IMG/VR virus record: IMGVR_UViG_3300036851_000037
Location: 1-45,328 of that record
Strand: one strand, 5' to 3'
DNA from: a virus
Length of the DNA: 45,328 bases
This document shows positions 2,947-45,328 of the stretch, piece after piece; position 1 is the stretch's first letter; every line of letters starts with the position of its first letter. Made by a program: the position numbers and the translations under genes. Under the pieces are notes generated by a model that saw only the letters and a program-made list of their open reading frames with translations, had not been told where the DNA came from and searched no databases.

Positions 2947-3912
2947 ATGGCTACTCCTACCGCAGTGTTTCAGACTGTCAACCAGATCGGCATTCGTGAA
3001 GACCTGGAAGACATCATTTACAACATCGCGCCCATGGACACGGTGTGCTTTAACCGTTTCGCCAAGGGTACGGCAAAGTCGGTCACTCACGAGTGGCAGA
3101 CGGATACGCTCGATGCGCCGGCAGACAACGCCTACATTGAAGGCGATGATTTCTCGGCGCAGGTTGTCAACCCGACGACTCGTCTCAAGAACTACACGCA
3201 AATTTCGCGTAAGGACTTCGTCCTGTCGCGTACCTCGAACGTCGTCAATACGGCCGGACGCAAAGAAGAACTGGCCTACCAGACGGTGCTTAAGGGCAAG
3301 GCGCTCAAGCGTGACGTAGAGCGCGCTCTGTGCCGTAACGCAGCGGCGACGATTGCTACCTCGGCGTCGGCTCGTGTTTCGGCCGGCGTGGAAACGTGGA
3401 TTTACACCACGAACCACGTTGCGGCGACGGGTCAGACCGCAGCCACGACTCCTGCTCCTGTTTCCGGTGTTGCCGGTACGGCGGGGACGGATGGTACGGC
3501 GACGGCGTTTGTCGAAGCTGACCTGAAGTCTGCGTTGCAGCAAGCGTGGTCGCAGGGCGGGGATACGGACGTGATCCTGCTTCCCCCGAACCTGAAGAAC
3601 AAGCTCGATAACTTTACGGGTATCGCTACGCGGTTCCGCAACGTCGAGTCGCGTTCGCAGGCTCAGATCATCGGCGCGGCGGATGTCTACGTCTCGTCGT
3701 ATGGTTCGCATCAGATTCAGCTCTCGCGGTACATGCGCGCCTCCGCGGTCTTGTGTCTCGACATGAGCACCTGGGCGGTCGCATGGCTGGACCCGATCCA
3801 CATGGAGAACATTGCCAAGTCGGGCGACAGCGAAAAGAGAATGTTGGTTGGCGAGTGGACGTTGGTGGCGAAGACGCCGACCGCGAATACGAAGCTTACG
3901 AACATCACGTAA
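2947..3912 (+). CDS. Major capsid protein (DUF5309/SU10-type)
   Basis: 321 residues. The N-terminal region (GIREDLEDIIYNIAP, then a small-residue loop and HEWQTDTL at about 49-56) is the hallmark of the DUF5309 major capsid family, which has the HK97 fold. A Thr/Ala/Gly-rich stretch at about residues 155-180 probably forms a surface loop. The C-terminal part (LDMSTWAVAWLDP, then GEWTLVAKTPTANTKL) is also family-like. The gene has its own leader hairpin and ribosome site, and is followed at once by a strong terminator, consistent with very high expression of this single gene. Position after scaffold agrees. Confidence 0.92.
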   Translation: MATPTAVFQTVNQIGIREDLEDIIYNIAPMDTVCFNRFAKGTAKSVTHEWQTDTLDAPADNAYIEGDDFSAQVVNPTTRLKNYTQISRKDFVLSRTSNVVNTAGRKEELAYQTVLKGKALKRDVERALCRNAAATIATSASARVSAGVETWIYTTNHVAATGQTAATTPAPVSGVAGTAGTDGTATAFVEADLKSALQQAWSQGGDTDVILLPPNLKNKLDNFTGIATRFRNVESRSQAQIIGAADVYVSSYGSHQIQLSRYMRASAVLCLDMSTWAVAWLDPIHMENIAKSGDSEKRMLVGEWTLVAKTPTANTKLTNIT

Positions 3913-3949: not shown

Positions 3950-4285
3950 ATGTCCAGACTACTAGACTACGACCCGTTTACCGGCGTGTCGATGACGTTC
4001 GATTACGACTACGCGTCGGATCAGACGATCATCGGCTACCACCAGGATGTAAAGCCCATTCTGGATTGGAACAAGTCACGAGCGGTCAACGTAGACAAGA
4101 ACAAGCTACAGGCGAAGCGCGAGCTTTTGCACTATGCCCGAGTGCCGATCATGGCGCAGATGGACATGCTGCAAAAGTACGGCGTCCGGTTTTGGGACAA
4201 GAACCACAGCAAGGAAGTCATGCGGTTACTGAACACTCGCGAATACGCGGATTGCCGGATTTCACACTGGAAGCATGATCGATAA
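3950..4285 (+). CDS. Conserved head-region protein, unknown function
   Basis: 111 residues starting MSRLLDYDPFTG and ending WKHDR. Proteins with this opening and a following Asp/Tyr-rich segment are common just after the capsid gene in podoviruses, but their role is not established to my knowledge. The middle is helical and charged. There is no obvious ribosome site in the terminator T-run just upstream. It overlaps the next gene by 11 bases within a 16-base sequence that recurs at the next junction. Confidence 0.8.
   Translation: MSRLLDYDPFTGVSMTFDYDYASDQTIIGYHQDVKPILDWNKSRAVNVDKNKLQAKRELLHYARVPIMAQMDMLQKYGVRFWDKNHSKEVMRLLNTREYADCRISHWKHDR
4269..4284 (+). repeat. 16-bp junction repeat, copy 1 (GGAAGCATGATCGATA)
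   Basis: This sequence forms a stop/start overlap: it ends one gene (KHDR, stop) and starts the next (MID). It is repeated exactly at 4465-4480, where it does the same thing for the next gene pair. Confidence 0.85.
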
Positions 4286-4481
4286 ACTCGGTATTGGGCA
4301 GCACGGAGAGCAAAGCGCATTCATTGAGCAAAGCACACACATCGAATTAGATGACAAAGACTTGGATGTGTGTGACGCGCTCTGGAACACGTTTGACGTT
4401 ATCTATACCAACGTCACAGATTTGCGCGCTGTGTACCGGGCGGGCATGCTGGCGGGCATGAATCGGAAGCATGATCGATAG
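4275..4481 (+). CDS. Small hypothetical protein
   Basis: 68-residue acidic protein with no recognised domain; the N-terminal half is polar and the C-terminal half helical (a VYRAGMLAGMNRKHDR ending). It is placed between two copies of the 16-bp junction repeat, so it looks like an insert between the head protein and the TPR-glycosyltransferase. Both overlaps are 11 bases and its translation is probably coupled to both neighbours. Confidence 0.65.
   Translation: MIDKLGIGQHGEQSAFIEQSTHIELDDKDLDVCDALWNTFDVIYTNVTDLRAVYRAGMLAGMNRKHDR
4465..4480 (+). repeat. 16-bp junction repeat, copy 2
   Basis: Exact copy of 4269-4284. It ends the 68-residue gene with KHDR-stop and starts the TPR-glycosyltransferase with MID. 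Confidence 0.85.
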
Positions 4482-5859
4482 TCTTCGTCACAAGAAGGCG
4501 CAGGCGCACATAGAGCGTGAGGAGTACGTACCGGCATGGCTCATGCTCTCGGAGATGCTGAATGAGCAACCGGACGATCCAAAGTCGCTGTACCTCGCTG
4601 GCTGCGTCCTCCGGGGCCAGGGTCACACTGGAATGGCGTTGCAGCTCTTTAGGCGCGCGCTTGCTTTTGCCTCGAATATCCCGAACGTTTGGATGCACTT
4701 CGGGGCGTGCCTGCACGATACGAACCAATATGATGAAGCGCGGGATTCTTTCAAGGTAGTGCTCAAGGCCCTGCCCGATGACCCCATGCCGCCGGCCAAC
4801 ATCGCGGCGGGATATGTACAGCAGGGCAATGCTCAACTCGCCCTCAAGTGGGCGGACAGGGCGCTAGCGCTGGACCCTCAGTGTCGCATCGCAAGAGTTG
4901 CCGCTGGCTTCGGCAATCTAGCCCTCGGACAATGGGCGAAGGGCTGGGAATACTCAGACTCCCTGTATGGCGAGACGTTGAGGATTCGCGTCTATCGTGA
5001 TCCAGAAGAACCGCAGTGGGACGGGACCAAGGGTCAGACGGTCATCGTCCAAGCCGATCAGGGATTAGGCGAGATGTTGATGTTCTCGCAGATGCTTCCC
5101 GAGATGGCGAAGGACTGCAAGAAGCTGGTTGTTGAGACGAATCCTCGGCTGCTAAACCTGTTCAAGCGCAACTTCCCCGAAGTCGATGTTTACGGGACGC
5201 TGAAAGAGCGTTCGGACTTGGATTGGCCGCTCAAGTACGACATTGACGCACACATGCACATCTCTGCTATTGGCCGGTTTTATCGGACGAAGGACGAAGA
5301 TTTTCCCCGTAAGGCGTATCTCACGGCGGACCCTGAAAAGCGGGCGAAATGGCGTGCGTGGCTTGAGCAATTTCCCAAGCCTTGGGTTGGGCTGGCGTGG
5401 CGCGGGGGCATCGCGCGCACGAACGAAGCGACGCGCAGTCTGGCGTTAGCTCAGTTCAAGCCGATCATGGAGCAGGGCGGCACGTTCATATCGCTGGCCT
5501 ATCAGGATGTTGGTCTGGAAATCGCGCGCTGGAACATCGACAACCGCGAGCAGGTCCATGTGCCCGACATCAACAACGAGGGCGACTTCGATGAATGGGT
5601 CGCGCTCATTGCTGAGCTGGATCACACGGTTTCTGTGCTGACGACCGCGGTCCATGTCTGTGGAGCGCTGGGTAAGCGTTGTCACGTCTTAGTGCCGTCT
5701 GTGTGTCAGTGGCAGCACGCTTATGGGGGTGACGGAATGGTCTGGTATCCGCCGAGCACGGTCAGGAACTACCGACAGCGAGAGGGCGAGAGTTGGAGTC
5801 GGGTAATTACCGAGATTGCCGGCGACTATCAGGCGTTCGTGATGCCTTTAGCCGCATGA
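4471..5859 (+). CDS. TPR-repeat glycosyltransferase
   Basis: 462 residues. Residues about 5-135 form three to four tetratricopeptide-like helical repeats (for example LYLAGCVLRGQGHTGMALQL, then VWMHFGACLHDTNQYDEA). The rest resembles the glycosyltransferase domain seen in bacterial TPR proteins: QADQGLGEMLMFSQML (about 190-206), VGLAWRGG (about 305-312) followed by SLAL, a late HVCGALGKRCHVLVP motif and WYPPSTVRNYRQ. The usual VDTAVAH of the family reads SVLTTAVH here, so the Asp is missing. TPR-linked transferases of this kind usually modify proteins or cell-surface sugars. It is the first gene of a four-gene overlapping cassette set inside the structural operon, so I infer virion glycosylation; host-surface modification is the main alternative. 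Confidence 0.8.
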   Translation: MIDSLRHKKAQAHIEREEYVPAWLMLSEMLNEQPDDPKSLYLAGCVLRGQGHTGMALQLFRRALAFASNIPNVWMHFGACLHDTNQYDEARDSFKVVLKALPDDPMPPANIAAGYVQQGNAQLALKWADRALALDPQCRIARVAAGFGNLALGQWAKGWEYSDSLYGETLRIRVYRDPEEPQWDGTKGQTVIVQADQGLGEMLMFSQMLPEMAKDCKKLVVETNPRLLNLFKRNFPEVDVYGTLKERSDLDWPLKYDIDAHMHISAIGRFYRTKDEDFPRKAYLTADPEKRAKWRAWLEQFPKPWVGLAWRGGIARTNEATRSLALAQFKPIMEQGGTFISLAYQDVGLEIARWNIDNREQVHVPDINNEGDFDEWVALIAELDHTVSVLTTAVHVCGALGKRCHVLVPSVCQWQHAYGGDGMVWYPPSTVRNYRQREGESWSRVITEIAGDYQAFVMPLAA

Positions 5860-6572
5860 GAGTCGTAACAACGTGTCACAAGCAAGGTTTCGAGGACTAC
5901 GGCCACAGGTTGTTATCCAGTTTTCACAAGTGGCCGGCTGCTGAACTCTATTGGTACACCGAGCGCTATGAGCTGCCGCCAACCATTGACCTAGAGCAAC
6001 CGTCGCATCCGGTTGTTAGTAAGAGCGTCGCGGACCTAACAGCTTTCCAAGAGTGGAAGCTGAAGCACGCGGCCTACATAGCTCCTAGCTGGCAGTGGGA
6101 TGTCGTCAGGTTCGCGCACAAGGTCTTTGCCATTGCCGGCGCCCTGTACGACTACACAGGAATCGGCGTCTGGATTGATGCGGACTGCGTCATCCACGAA
6201 GACGTGCCGGCGGGCCTGATTCAGTCCTACGTTAAAGACGACTACGTTGCATGCTTTCAACGTACCGGGATGCACACCGAGACGGGAATGATCGTCTTCG
6301 ACTGCGGGCACGAGAAGCATCAGGCGTTCATGGATGCGTGGCGCGAGTGGTATCACTCGGAGAACTTCAAGCGGCTCCCGATGTGGACCGATTGTCATAC
6401 CTTCGACATGACGATTAGGCGAACGGGTGTAACGGCTAACAACCTGTCGGGCGAGTTTGCCAAGACGATGCATCCGATGGCCCGCGCCGAGATCGCTAAG
6501 TACGTGGACCACTGCAAAGGGGCCCGCAAGGTCGCTGGCCGGTCCAAGGAGAACGTCTACCGTGCGGTATGA
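5856..6572 (+). CDS. Putative DxD glycosyltransferase
   Basis: 238 residues, starting at the ATG that overlaps the previous stop (ATGA). The chain looks like a GT-A fold: N-terminal VVTTCHKQGFEDYGHRLLSS, then VWIDADCVIHEDVP with a DAD motif at residues 108-110, the metal/sugar-nucleotide site in this class, and later TGMIVFDC. It is soluble with no signal peptide. Sugar donor and acceptor cannot be told from sequence. The ORF extends in frame upstream, but the ATG at 5856 is favoured by the overlap pattern. Confidence 0.75.
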   Translation: MRVVTTCHKQGFEDYGHRLLSSFHKWPAAELYWYTERYELPPTIDLEQPSHPVVSKSVADLTAFQEWKLKHAAYIAPSWQWDVVRFAHKVFAIAGALYDYTGIGVWIDADCVIHEDVPAGLIQSYVKDDYVACFQRTGMHTETGMIVFDCGHEKHQAFMDAWREWYHSENFKRLPMWTDCHTFDMTIRRTGVTANNLSGEFAKTMHPMARAEIAKYVDHCKGARKVAGRSKENVYRAV

Positions 6573-7107
6573 CTACGTGGCCGCTCTGGCCGCTAAGTAT
6601 CAGCCTGAGACGATCCTAGAGGTGGGAACGTGGAACGGACGCCGGGCGGTCGAGATGCTAACCGCGGCTCCTAAGGCTAGGTACTATGGATTCGACCTGT
6701 TCGAGGAAGCGACCGAAGAAACTGACGCGGCGGAAATGAACGTCAAGAAGCATCATAGTCTTCGGGGCGTTCACTCCTACCTGTTGGAAGCATTAGGCCC
6801 GGAACGGGAAATAACGCTGATTCGCGGCAATACCCGCAAGACGCTGGCCGAGTTCAACGAGTCCGTAGATTTTGCTTGGATTGACGGCGGGCACTCAGTC
6901 GAGACGATCCGGAGCGATTGGGACAACGTCAGGCGGGTAATCAAGCCGGGCGGTGTTGTCCTGTTCGACGACTACTACTCCGACGACATCGACACGAGCA
7001 AATTTGGCTGTAACTCCATCGTTAAGGATTGGGACCATGTGGTTGTGTGTGCGCCCGATCCGGTCCTGGGCGGCGGAACGGTGAGGATTGCTAGGGTGTA
7101 CGTGTGA
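6562..7107 (+). CDS. Class I SAM-dependent methyltransferase
   Basis: 181 residues if the GTG at 6562 is used (11-base overlap with the previous gene). The SAM-binding motif I is ILEVGTWNGR at about residues 18-27, followed by an acidic strand end (GFDLFEEA), FAWIDGGHSVETIRSDW and VIKPGGVVLFDDYY, the pattern of Methyltransf_24-type enzymes that often methylate sugars in glycan clusters. Neighbours on both sides are glycosyltransferases, so a sugar or glycan target is the likeliest. An ATG at 6457 is in frame, but the extra residues are an Arg/Pro-rich out-of-frame shadow. Confidence 0.85.
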   Translation: MRYDYVAALAAKYQPETILEVGTWNGRRAVEMLTAAPKARYYGFDLFEEATEETDAAEMNVKKHHSLRGVHSYLLEALGPEREITLIRGNTRKTLAEFNESVDFAWIDGGHSVETIRSDWDNVRRVIKPGGVVLFDDYYSDDIDTSKFGCNSIVKDWDHVVVCAPDPVLGGGTVRIARVYV

Positions 7108-7763
7108 CGTATCGCGTATTCGTTGGATTCGACCCGCGCCAAGCCATAGCCTACAACGTCCTACAGCACAGCATTCACAGACACGCATCGAAGCGGGTCA
7201 TAGTCGAACCGCTGATGCTGTCGAAGCTCCCGACGAGTCGGCGGGGGCTTACTGAATTTACCTTCTCCCGTTTTCTGGTTCCGTGGCTCTGTAACTACGA
7301 AGGGCCGGCTGTCTTCATGGACGCCGACATCGTAGTGAAGGGCGACATCGCCGAGCTATTCGAGCAGGCGAATCCCGAGTTTGCGGTTCAGGTCATGCAA
7401 CAGCAGCCCAAGTTCGAATGGGCGAGTGTGATGCTGTTCAACTGCGACAAATGCCACGTATTGCAGCCTGAGTATGTGGACAACCCCGAGAACCGTCTAC
7501 TAGACCTCGAATGGGGGCCGGTAGGCACGTTCTCGTGCGAATGGAATCACTGTGTCGGTTACGCAGAGCCCAAGGAAGCGAAGCTCTATCACTACACCCA
7601 AGGACTCCCTTGCTGGTACGAATCCAGCGGACTACCGGAGGACGAGGCATGGCACGAGGAACGAAAGCTCATGAATCACACAGTGTCATGGAAAGAATTG
7701 ATGGGGCGCTCGGTCCATGCCAAGCCGGTCCTCGAGCGGCTATTCCAACGCCTGACACGATGA
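7104..7763 (+). CDS. GT8-like glycosyltransferase
   Basis: 219 residues from a GTG overlapping the previous stop (GTGA). VFVGFDPRQAIAYNVLQHSI at residues 5-24 and VFMDADIVVKGDI with DAD at 73-75 are typical of GT8-like or related GT-A transferases that bind a nucleotide sugar with a divalent metal. The C-terminal half carries several His/Trp residues (LYHYTQGLPCW). It is the last enzyme of the cassette and overlaps a 35-residue gene before the adaptor. Confidence 0.8.
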   Translation: MTYRVFVGFDPRQAIAYNVLQHSIHRHASKRVIVEPLMLSKLPTSRRGLTEFTFSRFLVPWLCNYEGPAVFMDADIVVKGDIAELFEQANPEFAVQVMQQQPKFEWASVMLFNCDKCHVLQPEYVDNPENRLLDLEWGPVGTFSCEWNHCVGYAEPKEAKLYHYTQGLPCWYESSGLPEDEAWHEERKLMNHTVSWKELMGRSVHAKPVLERLFQRLTR

Positions 7764-7867
7764 ATGCCATTTTCGACGCTGCGTCCGATAGAGACTGTGT
7801 AGACCTAGTCCTGCGCGTTATCGCGTTCTATGCGGCGCGCGATGCCAAGATGGGATGGCGGGTCTAA
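7760..7867 (+). CDS. Tiny hypothetical protein (35 aa)
   Basis: ATG overlaps the preceding stop (ATGA) and the TAA directly abuts the adaptor ATG, so it fills an otherwise empty gap perfectly. The protein reads MNAIFDAASDRDCVDLVLRV and on to a GWRV end; one amphipathic helix. No function visible. Confidence 0.5.
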   Translation: MNAIFDAASDRDCVDLVLRVIAFYAARDAKMGWRV

Positions 7868-8470
7868 ATGGCTCTCGACAGCTACGCCAATCTTAAGACG
7901 GCCCTGCAAACATGGATGGCGCGGGCCGATCTGTCGAACGATGTTGACGACCTGATCGACATTTTCGAGGGCTGGTGCAATCGGAATCTAAGAGTTCCGC
8001 AGATGGAGCAGGAAGCCACTGCGTCAGCTACTGAGTACATGCCGCTACCTACTGATTTTGTGCAATTGCGTGACATTCAATGGCAGGGAAGCCCGCGCAG
8101 ACAGTTGGAGTATGTAACGCCGTCCTATGCGGATATTTACGACAACACCGGGACGGCTGGAACGCCAAAGTATTACACGGTTGTCGCAAATCAGCTCCGA
8201 CTAATCCCGGCGCCGGACTCGCCTACAAGCATCCGTATCGACTACTGGCAGAAGCTCCCCGCCTTGTCTGCTGAAACAGCGACCAATTGGCTCCTCGCCC
8301 TGTATCCCGACGCCTATCTCTATGGACCCATGGTTCATGGTCACGTCCGAATTCATAACCCACAGATGGCCACAACGATAGCGAGCGGCTGGGCGGGCGT
8401 CATGCGCGAAATAGATAAAGCAGGGCGTAACCAGAACTTCGGCAGTCTGTTGCAGATTAGACCCGCTTAA
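7868..8470 (+). CDS. Head-tail adaptor (P22 gp4-like)
   Basis: 200 residues. An N-terminal helical half (SYANLKTALQTWMARADLS and a following acidic helix) and a later PLPTDFVQLRDIQW, IDYWQKLPALS and LYPDAYLYGPM are typical of the podovirus adaptor that docks under the portal and extends the DNA channel. Size and place, between capsid and tail genes, agree. Confidence 0.8.
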   Translation: MALDSYANLKTALQTWMARADLSNDVDDLIDIFEGWCNRNLRVPQMEQEATASATEYMPLPTDFVQLRDIQWQGSPRRQLEYVTPSYADIYDNTGTAGTPKYYTVVANQLRLIPAPDSPTSIRIDYWQKLPALSAETATNWLLALYPDAYLYGPMVHGHVRIHNPQMATTIASGWAGVMREIDKAGRNQNFGSLLQIRPA

Positions 8471-8724: not shown

Positions 8725-9150
8725 ATGGCGAATTCCGCCGGTATTTGCACGTCGTTCAAGGTCGAAATCTTGGGCGCGACTCACAACCTGAATAACGGCG
8801 GACACTCGCTCAAGATGGCGCTGTATCTCACGTCAGCGACCGTCACTCCTGCTACGACCGCTTACTCGTCCACCAATGAAGTCACGTCGGCCAACTACAC
8901 GGCGGGCGGGGCTGCGGTAACGAACGTTGCGGTGTCGAGTTCGGGTACTACCGCGATATGGACTCCGGGCGCCAATATAACTTGGACGACGGTTACGTTT
9001 ACGACGGACTGCGCGTTCCTCTACAACACTTCAGCGGCTAACAAGTCCATCGCTGTGTTTACCTTCGGTTCGCAGACAGTCTCAGCGGGCAACTTCACGC
9101 TGACCATGCCAACCAACGATGCCAGCAATGCTCTTATCCGCATCGCCTGA
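8725..9150 (+). CDS. Small beta-rich virion protein (decoration-like)
   Basis: 141 residues, very rich in Thr/Ser/Ala/Asn with alternating hydrophobics, and nearly free of Lys and Arg after the start; reads as a small beta-sandwich. The gene has the same leader hairpin and strong ribosome site as the capsid gene, suggesting an abundant virion component. Head decoration or tail component fits; I cannot decide between them. Confidence 0.65.
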   Translation: MANSAGICTSFKVEILGATHNLNNGGHSLKMALYLTSATVTPATTAYSSTNEVTSANYTAGGAAVTNVAVSSSGTTAIWTPGANITWTTVTFTTDCAFLYNTSAANKSIAVFTFGSQTVSAGNFTLTMPTNDASNALIRIA

Positions 9151-44535: not shown

Positions 44536-45328
44536 AGCTAACTAACGAAGAACTCATAGCGGCTATTGAATCCGAGGAAGCGCTCGCCCTCGATAACCGC
44601 TCAGGTGAGCTTCAGCAGCAGAGAGCAGATGCGCTAGCGCGATACCGGGGCGAGCCTTTAGGCAATGAACAGGAGGGGCGCTCCCAAGTAGTAGACAAAT
44701 CCGTCCTAGATACGATTGAGTGGATCATGCCGTCGCTCATCCGCATCTATCAGGGCGGCGACGAGATCGGGAAATTCGAGCCGCGCAGTCGAGAGGACGA
44801 GGAAGCGGCCGAGGTCGAGACTGACGTATGTAACTGGTATCTGGACGCCAAGAATGACCTGTTCTCTCACGTCAGTTCTACGCTAAGAGACGCACTGCTC
44901 CTGAAGAACGGCTACATGGTGTCGTACTGGAACAAACGGTACGACACGATGACCGAGACGTATGAGGGTCAGTCGGACGAAGAAGCGGCGATGCTCGCTT
45001 CTGATCCCGAAGTCGAGGTTCTAGAGCACTCGGAGGAAATCGATCCGGTTACGGGCCAGACCTTGCATTCGATGAAGGTCGAGGCTAAGCGCTGCGAGGA
45101 ATACCCTGCGGTCGAGTCTGTGCCGCCGGACGAGATGATTGTCTCTCGGCGTCATCGCTGGACATCCCTGCTAGACGCAGATTTTGTGCAGTGGCGCCGT
45201 CGTGTATCTATCGGCCAACTCAGGTCCGAGGGCTTCAAGGTATCGGACGACGAGCCGTCCTACGATGATCTTACGCAGGAAGCGACGACTCGGGCGCGGT
45301 TTCAGGAGAACGATGTCTCTGAGGACAA
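44532..45328 (+). CDS. Portal protein, N-terminal part (continues at 1)
   Basis: Reading frame begins after the terminase stop; the only position fitting an overlap is CTG 44532 in CTGA, with AAGGGA five bases upstream. The first ATG in frame would be more than 190 bases into the coding sequence, past conserved LGNEQEGRSQVV and IEWIMPSL. The frame runs off the window and matches bases 3 onwards at the start, giving 728 residues overall. See the entry for 1-1517. Confidence 0.9.
   Translation, partial: MKLTNEELIAAIESEEALALDNRSGELQQQRADALARYRGEPLGNEQEGRSQVVDKSVLDTIEWIMPSLIRIYQGGDEIGKFEPRSREDEEAAEVETDVCNWYLDAKNDLFSHVSSTLRDALLLKNGYMVSYWNKRYDTMTETYEGQSDEEAAMLASDPEVEVLEHSEEIDPVTGQTLHSMKVEAKRCEEYPAVESVPPDEMIVSRRHRWTSLLDADFVQWRRRVSIGQLRSEGFKVSDDEPSYDDLTQEATTRARFQENDVSED
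45202..45328. repeat. Terminal direct repeat, right copy (contig overlap)
   Basis: Identical to bases 1-127; see the left copy. Confidence 0.95.

Follow-up and report, generated by a model that had tools for sequence, protein, structure and literature searches.

We analysed a virus-derived stretch of 45,328 nt, the IMG/VR record IMGVR_UViG_3300036851_000037 (its whole length is called the window here), and the four-gene cassette within its head operon, which comprises a tetratricopeptide repeat (TPR) glycosyltransferase (TPR-GT, P0001), a second glycosyltransferase (GTB, P0002), a methyltransferase (P0003) and a third glycosyltransferase of family GT8 (GTD, P0004). The reading we favor, with reasonable but far from full confidence, is that the cassette is a virion protein-glycosylation system of the head operon and that its most likely acceptor is the major capsid protein (MCP). 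Among the viral relatives, nearly every one of 187 loci has the TPR-GT at the same junction of the head operon, and phages with this cassette therefore probably decorate their own capsids with a sugar that is methylated. A sequence-only reading of this DNA had already claimed a glycosylation cassette in the head operon; the claim is now supported by the fixed junction, the descent of the TPR-GT with the capsid, its OGT-like fold, the methyltransferases that share its slot and the fusions of GTB with a methyltransferase.

Enzymes of the cassette

The window holds the head operon of a LUZ24/phiM5-like podovirus, in the order portal, scaffold, SU10-type MCP, gp61-like gene and adaptor. The cassette lies between the gp61-like gene and the adaptor, and its genes overlap successively by 4, 11 and 4 nt (Table 1). 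Four genes with overlaps of 4 to 11 bases, a head-operon location, TPR repeats in the first product, DAD motifs in two others and motif I of S-adenosylmethionine (SAM)-dependent enzymes in the remaining one had all been described from the letters alone, and each of these descriptions held. The location is confirmed by the MCP (PF17236) and gp61-like gene (phrog_3982) upstream and the SU10 adaptor (PF24175) downstream, and the motifs by the results that follow.

P0001 matches TPR_2 in Pfam at 4e-13, and its predicted structure (predicted local distance difference test score [pLDDT], 93.9) comprises a TPR superhelix, with TPR helices over residues 2-151, and then a GT-B domain. The structure search that the sequence-only reading had proposed was run for P0001 and P0002, and both matched glycosyltransferase folds. 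The best PDB matches of the P0001 model in Foldseek were SPINDLY (SPY) and XcOGT (E 2e-11), with OGT also among the best; relative to SPINDLY and XcOGT, identity is 10-13%, TM-scores reach about 0.4 and the domain arrangement differs. A profile search of P0001 against the PDB gave its best alignment through the TPR region. P0001 has both the N-terminal TPR and C-terminal GT-B architecture of GT41-type enzymes and the FlmG-like combination of TPR and GT-B domains in a protein predicted to be cytosolic and free of membrane segments. Membrane segments are absent from all four cassette proteins, in which the highest Kyte-Doolittle 19-residue mean is 1.27. On the basis of the model, we propose that P0001 is a protein O-glycosyltransferase.

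P0002 matched no Pfam family, and its predicted structure (pLDDT 90.9) is that of a GT-A transferase, with Foldseek matches to LARGE1 (E 5e-08), glycogenin (E 5e-07) and UGGT. P0004 belongs to GT8 (PF01501, 7.2e-06; 26.2 bits against a gathering score of 24.3). The DAD motifs lie at residues 108-110 of P0002 and 73-75 of P0004, and both aspartate pairs are invariant in our alignments A1, A2 and A7 (D108 and D110 in A1 and A7; D73 and D75 in 21 aligned sequences). At the position of the GT8 C-terminal HxxGxxKPW motif, P0004 has only a variant, HxTxGxP, of which H163 and P169 are invariant. P0003 carries the SAM motif as ILEVGTWNG and matches Methyltransf_24 (PF13578, 4.7e-19; 69.7 bits against a cut-off of 26.3). 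GTB and the methyltransferase form a single reading frame in two relatives (L083 and L108), and the two enzymes therefore probably act on the same product.

Some relatives depart from this pattern. The DxD motif is lost in the GTB homologues L032:11257-11964 (WIDPAL) and L111:12560-13276 (FIDPKF), which, judged by these residues, are perhaps inactive or differ in mechanism. In about 20 loci (including L007-L012, L021, L035, L037, L055, L063, L067, L082, L087, L098 and L110), the TPR-GT and GT8 frames share 86-158 nt. Because the GT8 N terminus is conserved in those loci, the end of the TPR-GT seems to come from run-on reading in the other frame.

Head-operon position, descent and exchange

Loci were collected by scanning viral contigs with GT8, GTB, TPR-GT and MCP and were read with hidden Markov models built from the window genes. 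Each scan is represented by the best 80 of more than 560 matches, so more distant TPR-GTs may sit elsewhere. The 187 TPR-GT loci comprise 110 in a first set, window included, and 77 from a second scan with the TPR-GTs of a lineage that has PF13252 capsids; a few of the 77 are on contigs that the earlier scans had returned. In the first set the gene immediately upstream of the TPR-GT is the gp61-like one in 91/110 loci, and the adaptor follows within 6 kb in 92/110, the remainder being mostly contig ends or members of the PF13252 lineage. The gp61-like gene and adaptor are 1.3-6.2 kb apart in all 67 TPR-GT-positive loci that carry both, whereas in SU10-capsid relatives without a TPR-GT they abut (-55 to +3 nt) in 45 of 50. 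Clustering at 70% identity leaves 74 groups, and the pattern is therefore not that of one clone. In the PF13252 lineage the TPR-GT lies between a Ser/Thr-rich gene of ~146 amino acids (aa) and the adaptor in 57/77 loci; a further 19/77 abut the edge of a contig or could be only partly resolved, and a single locus (L286) falls outside the slot. Across the relatives, the TPR-GT is genetically linked to virion genes.

The rest of the slot is variable. GT8 is present in 56/76 complete slots of the first set and 56/63 of the second, the GTB family in 9/76, and all four families together only in the window, L013 and L025. The 148 further slot proteins are mostly methyltransferases (Methyltransf_23 in 52, FkbM in 10), and GT9, DegT aminotransferase, radical SAM, sulfotransferase and NUDIX proteins are also found among them.

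Descent of the TPR-GT follows that of the capsid. In a capsid tree from which the columns of the loop discussed below were left out (58 TPR-GT-positive and 49 negative rows), a single change suffices to account for TPR-GT presence (Shimodaira-Hasegawa-like approximate likelihood ratio test [SH-aLRT], 84). All 12 of the capsid-selected loci in the positive clade that extend past gp61 carry a TPR-GT, and capsid-selected loci that do not carry one belong to the negative clade or to contigs that end right after the capsid gene. Pairwise identity of the TPR-GT follows that of the MCP with r = 0.87 (n = 35), compared with 0.22 for GT8 (GTD) and the MCP. When portal, scaffold, gp61 and adaptor are controlled for, the TPR-GT and the MCP retain a partial rank correlation of 0.39, and the partial correlations of the TPR-GT with gp61 or the adaptor are near zero. 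Removal of close pairs left a partial correlation with the MCP of 0.31 (permutation P = 0.01), with the MCP as best partner in 30/30 jackknifes. Median ratios of nonsynonymous to synonymous substitution (dN/dS) are 0.12 for the TPR-GT, 0.18 for GT8 and 0.16 for the MCP; such low values indicate purifying selection, and all three are therefore working genes.

GT8 has a different history. The window GT8 falls in a 14-row phage clade (SH-aLRT 99), whereas those of the nearest phages, L002 and L025, belong to another clade, and bacterial sequences lie between the two clades. The window and L002 are 75% identical in the MCP, 62% in the TPR-GT and 34% in GT8, whereas the GT8s of the window and L007 are 65% identical. 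The split of the clades and this identity pattern indicate exchange of GT8 between phages, in contrast to a TPR-GT that remained with the capsid.

These results bear on an unlikely alternative, in which the target is a host surface protein, for instance type IV pilin or flagellin, other phages are thereby kept out of the infected or lysogenic cell, and the enzymes lie in the head operon by chance. Bacterial relatives retrieved in a genome scan with GT8 do frequently have TPR-GTs next to them, in some cases a row of several, and type IV pilin genes lie within several kb in about 13 of 80 bacterial loci, which associates the bacterial TPR-GT/GT8 pair with a filament-subunit gene; moreover, the window phage carries an integrase, so a benefit to the lysogen is conceivable. 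Against this stand the fixation of the TPR-GT at one head-operon junction in two lineages, its descent with the capsid and gene starts that overlap head genes, which imply late expression alongside the virion proteins. Exclusion genes usually lie outside the late structural operon, and they turn over.

The acceptor and a proposed mechanism

The sequence-only reading had named the virion as target, through the capsid, the Thr/Ser-rich protein encoded at 8725 or the fibre. The virion remains the best explanation, but two of the three candidates fared poorly. The 8725 protein is rejected as a conserved substrate, its homologues being confined to L040, L041 and L128 (3/267 loci), and the fibre is no better placed, homologues of the 850-aa protein encoded at 9150 being found in 0/267 loci searched. 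The MCP itself, with its Thr-rich loop, is a better fit. Relatives of the MCP with solved structures, 9ny2 and 7z45, were identified. The stretch in question, residues 151-193, varies in length among relatives and contains the motif TT[PTAVISG][GAPVT] in 55/58 TPR-GT-positive phages versus 4/49 negative ones, although this motif was chosen after inspection of the sequences. Thr density in the loop is 0.227 in the positive phages versus 0.172 in the negative ones, compared with 0.090 outside the loop in both. The association of the TPR-GT with a Thr-rich loop is only suggestive.

Several results weigh against the capsid as substrate of a protein glycosyltransferase. P0001 has no match to the Pfam GT41 model and hits only TPR-type families at E ≤ 1. 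The TPR-GT has a single origin on the SU10-capsid tree, so the loop association amounts to one independent contrast. TPR-GT-positive capsids have fewer, not more, Ser and Thr in their last 8-20 residues, and because this contrast runs the opposite way we reject the capsid C terminus as acceptor. The portal tracks the capsid as well as the TPR-GT does, and shared head-operon descent therefore explains much of the correlation between TPR-GT and MCP. Finally, the coevolution signal lies in the GT domain and not in the TPR domain, a pattern that co-adaptation of TPR and substrate does not predict; we therefore reject coevolution of the TPR domain with the capsid.

A less probable but still appreciable alternative places the sugar on some virion protein apart from the MCP: the gp61-like protein, the adaptor, the fibre or, in the PF13252 lineage, a Ser/Thr-rich, cement-like protein. 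The gp61-like gene is the immediate, overlapping upstream neighbor, and the acceptor could differ between the two lineages. In the PF13252 lineage (L014-L026 and L269-L345), the ~146-aa gene directly before the TPR-GT, which has almost no family match, encodes 22.7% Ser plus Thr versus 14.7% in the capsid protein, and from this composition its product may be a capsid cement protein and the acceptor in that lineage. Opposed to this alternative are the partial correlation of the TPR-GT with the MCP, compared with values of about zero for gp61 and the adaptor, and the lack of conservation of the window's fibre-region and 8725 proteins in cassette phages.

It is far less probable that the targets are host lipopolysaccharide (LPS) or capsule, or that the enzymes hypermodify the DNA of the phage. 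DNA glucosylation and serotype conversion are both known activities of phage glycosyltransferases (reviewed in PMC12619734), but the cassette encodes neither a flippase nor a glycosyltransferase that spans the membrane, no nucleotide hydroxymethylase, thymidylate-synthase-like or LPS gene was found when 20 further window genes were scanned with Pfam, and the TPR-GT-B architecture is that of protein glycosyltransferases.

For the virion system that we favor, we infer a protein acceptor, most likely the capsid protein, and the following order of steps. The TPR domain of P0001 would bind a head protein in the cytosol, most likely newly made MCP, and its GT-B domain would add the first sugar to Ser or Thr, perhaps in the 151-193 loop. 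GTB and GTD would then add further sugars, and P0003 would methylate the glycan next to the sugar added by GTB. Any benefit might lie in an altered surface, in adsorption or in resistance to capsid-directed defences. More tentatively, and with somewhat less than an even chance of being right in full, we suggest that in two large lineages of uncultivated podoviruses, one with SU10-type and one with PF13252-type capsids, a TPR O-glycosyltransferase serves as a core head gene. In this view it would be the fixed priming enzyme that glycosylates Thr-rich surfaces of capsid or cement subunits as the particle assembles, and transferases and methyltransferases that are exchanged rapidly would then vary the glycan in a manner resembling serotype switching, here on the virion.

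To our knowledge, virion glycosylation has been proven in few phages, mostly mycobacterial ones. The present pattern implies that glycosylated virions are commonplace among the abundant uncultivated podoviruses, since each of two scans returned at least 560 matching virus loci. The cassette is nearly unrepresented among phage records: a near-full-length relative of the window TPR-GT occurs in only 1 of 50,697 (an environmental sample), and a nucleotide search of the cassette region against phages gave no match. A fixed priming enzyme with exchangeable finishing enzymes would, if the reading is true, be a way for phages to vary their surface, which would bear on adsorption, host recognition and capsid-sensing defences. 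The Thr-rich capsid loop provides a concrete acceptor hypothesis that is open to mass spectrometry.

Known systems, bacterial relatives and other features

A close architectural parallel is FlmG of Caulobacter crescentus, a TPR and GT-B protein whose TPR domain binds flagellins, which the enzyme glycosylates in the cytoplasm (eLife 2020, PMC7591256). P0001 shares with it the N-terminal TPR, the C-terminal GT-B domain, solubility and, as proposed here, a self-assembling structural protein as cytoplasmic substrate; by analogy with FlmG, and with the pilin genes near bacterial relatives of both the TPR-GT and GT8, which also favor our reading, the phage enzyme may modify a virion protein that self-assembles, either ahead of assembly or in the course of it. 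The comparison with FlmG is one of architecture and not of sequence, and the phage gene differs in lying in a head operon, with interchangeable genes for GT8, GT-A and methyltransferase enzymes downstream of it. The GT41 and SPINDLY enzymes (XcOGT, human OGT and plant SPY) share the TPR superhelix followed by GT-B and are the best PDB fold matches, but P0001 differs from them in its low identity, its domain arrangement and its failure to match GT41 in Pfam, and some slot proteins match GT9 instead.

This kind of system is already known in mycobacteriophages. In Che8, Corndog and Myrna, phage-encoded glycosyltransferases are reported to glycosylate capsid and tail-tube proteins of the virion (Freeman et al. 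2023, as cited in PMC12363180 and PMC12619734), and the capsid glycans are reported at C termini (PMC12619734). The present phages differ in lineage and host and in having an internal Thr-rich loop, rather than the C terminus, as the candidate site. LUZ24 and the Sinorhizobium phage phiM5 share the order portal, scaffold, MCP, gp61 and adaptor, but LUZ24 lacks the cassette, and phiM5 has, between MCP and gp61, a GDSL/SGNH hydrolase that is found in its particles. The Pelagibacter phage Mosig EXVC030M has adjacent genes for two methyltransferases, a GTB relative and a GT8 relative, together with a sulfotransferase, but this glycan cluster is outside the head operon and no TPR-GT was found. Within the literature we could read, we found no prior report of a TPR-GT in connection with podoviruses, heads or pilin. 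Within that literature, what looks new is the combination, in two podovirus lineages, of a TPR O-glycosyltransferase with a constant place in the head operon and finishing enzymes that can be exchanged.

The bacterial loci with nearby pilin genes are proteobacterial, mostly beta (L208, L212, L218, L232, L233, L235, L236, L242, L250, L256, L257, L266 and L268). Gene proximity makes it possible that a TPR-GT and GT8 near major type IV pilin genes constitute an unrecognised cytosolic pilin-glycosylation locus.

Table 1. Features of the head operon and cassette (window positions)
Feature	Positions	Strand	Basis
SU10/LUZ24-type MCP	2947..3912	+	PF17236, 1e-82
Thr-rich MCP loop, residues 151-193, TT at 167-168, candidate acceptor region	3397..3525	+	TT motif, Thr density
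gp61-like gene, fixed upstream neighbor of TPR-GT	3950..4285	+	phrog_3982, 1.6e-08
16-bp direct repeat, copy 1	4269..4284	+	exact match GGAAGCATGATCGATA
68-aa gene, between gp61-like gene and TPR-GT	4275..4481	+	absent from L002
16-bp direct repeat, copy 2	4465..4480	+	exact match GGAAGCATGATCGATA
TPR-GT (P0001), 462 aa, TPR + GT-B	4471..5859	+	TPR Pfam matches, model, Foldseek
GTB (P0002), 238 aa, GT-A fold, DxD D108/D110	5856..6572	+	model, Foldseek
SAM-dependent methyltransferase (P0003), 181 aa, GTG start	6562..7107	+	PF13578, 4.7e-19
GTD (P0004), 219 aa, GTG start, GT8 family, DxD D73/D75	7104..7763	+	PF01501, 7.2e-06
SU10-type head-tail adaptor, fixed downstream slot edge	7868..8470	+	PF24175, 2.4e-23

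The 68-aa gene at the upstream edge of the cassette had no relatives in Pfam, PHROG or homologue searches of the loci. Exact copies of GGAAGCATGATCGATA start at 4269 and 4465, and the window holds no third copy, even at 3 mismatches, with 0.36 such matches expected by chance. The earlier suggestion that this repeat marks a cassette edge was half right: the repeat is real and flanks the 68-aa gene, but that gene is all it brackets. The nearest relative, L002, does not have the gene, and its gp61-like gene runs directly into the TPR-GT across the homologous CATGATCGATAG. The repeat is therefore the mark of a later one-gene insertion at the cassette edge, and we reject it as a mark of the cassette's own insertion. 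The inserted gene left the 16-bp direct repeat and kept the start/stop overlaps on both sides.

At the other edge, a 35-aa open reading frame (7760-7867) fills the gap between cassette and adaptor, its ATGA overlapping the GT8 stop and its own stop abutting the adaptor start; small genes occupy this gap in several relatives too. TPR-GT-negative relatives (L117, L134, L147, L160 and similar) often have two small genes, of ~115 and ~90 aa, between the MCP and the gp61-like gene, whereas TPR-GT-positive phages mostly have none there, a contrast that is confined to clades. We considered these small genes as decoration proteins and rejected the idea: those scanned gave no informative PHROG match, and some are HNH endonucleases. 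Elsewhere in the window, Pfam scans identified the integrase, an ERF recombinase, an RNA ligase and a terminase. An open frame runs to the right end (44727-45326) and a truncated portal frame begins at the left end (3-1517), which suggests that the record is one circularly permuted complete genome.

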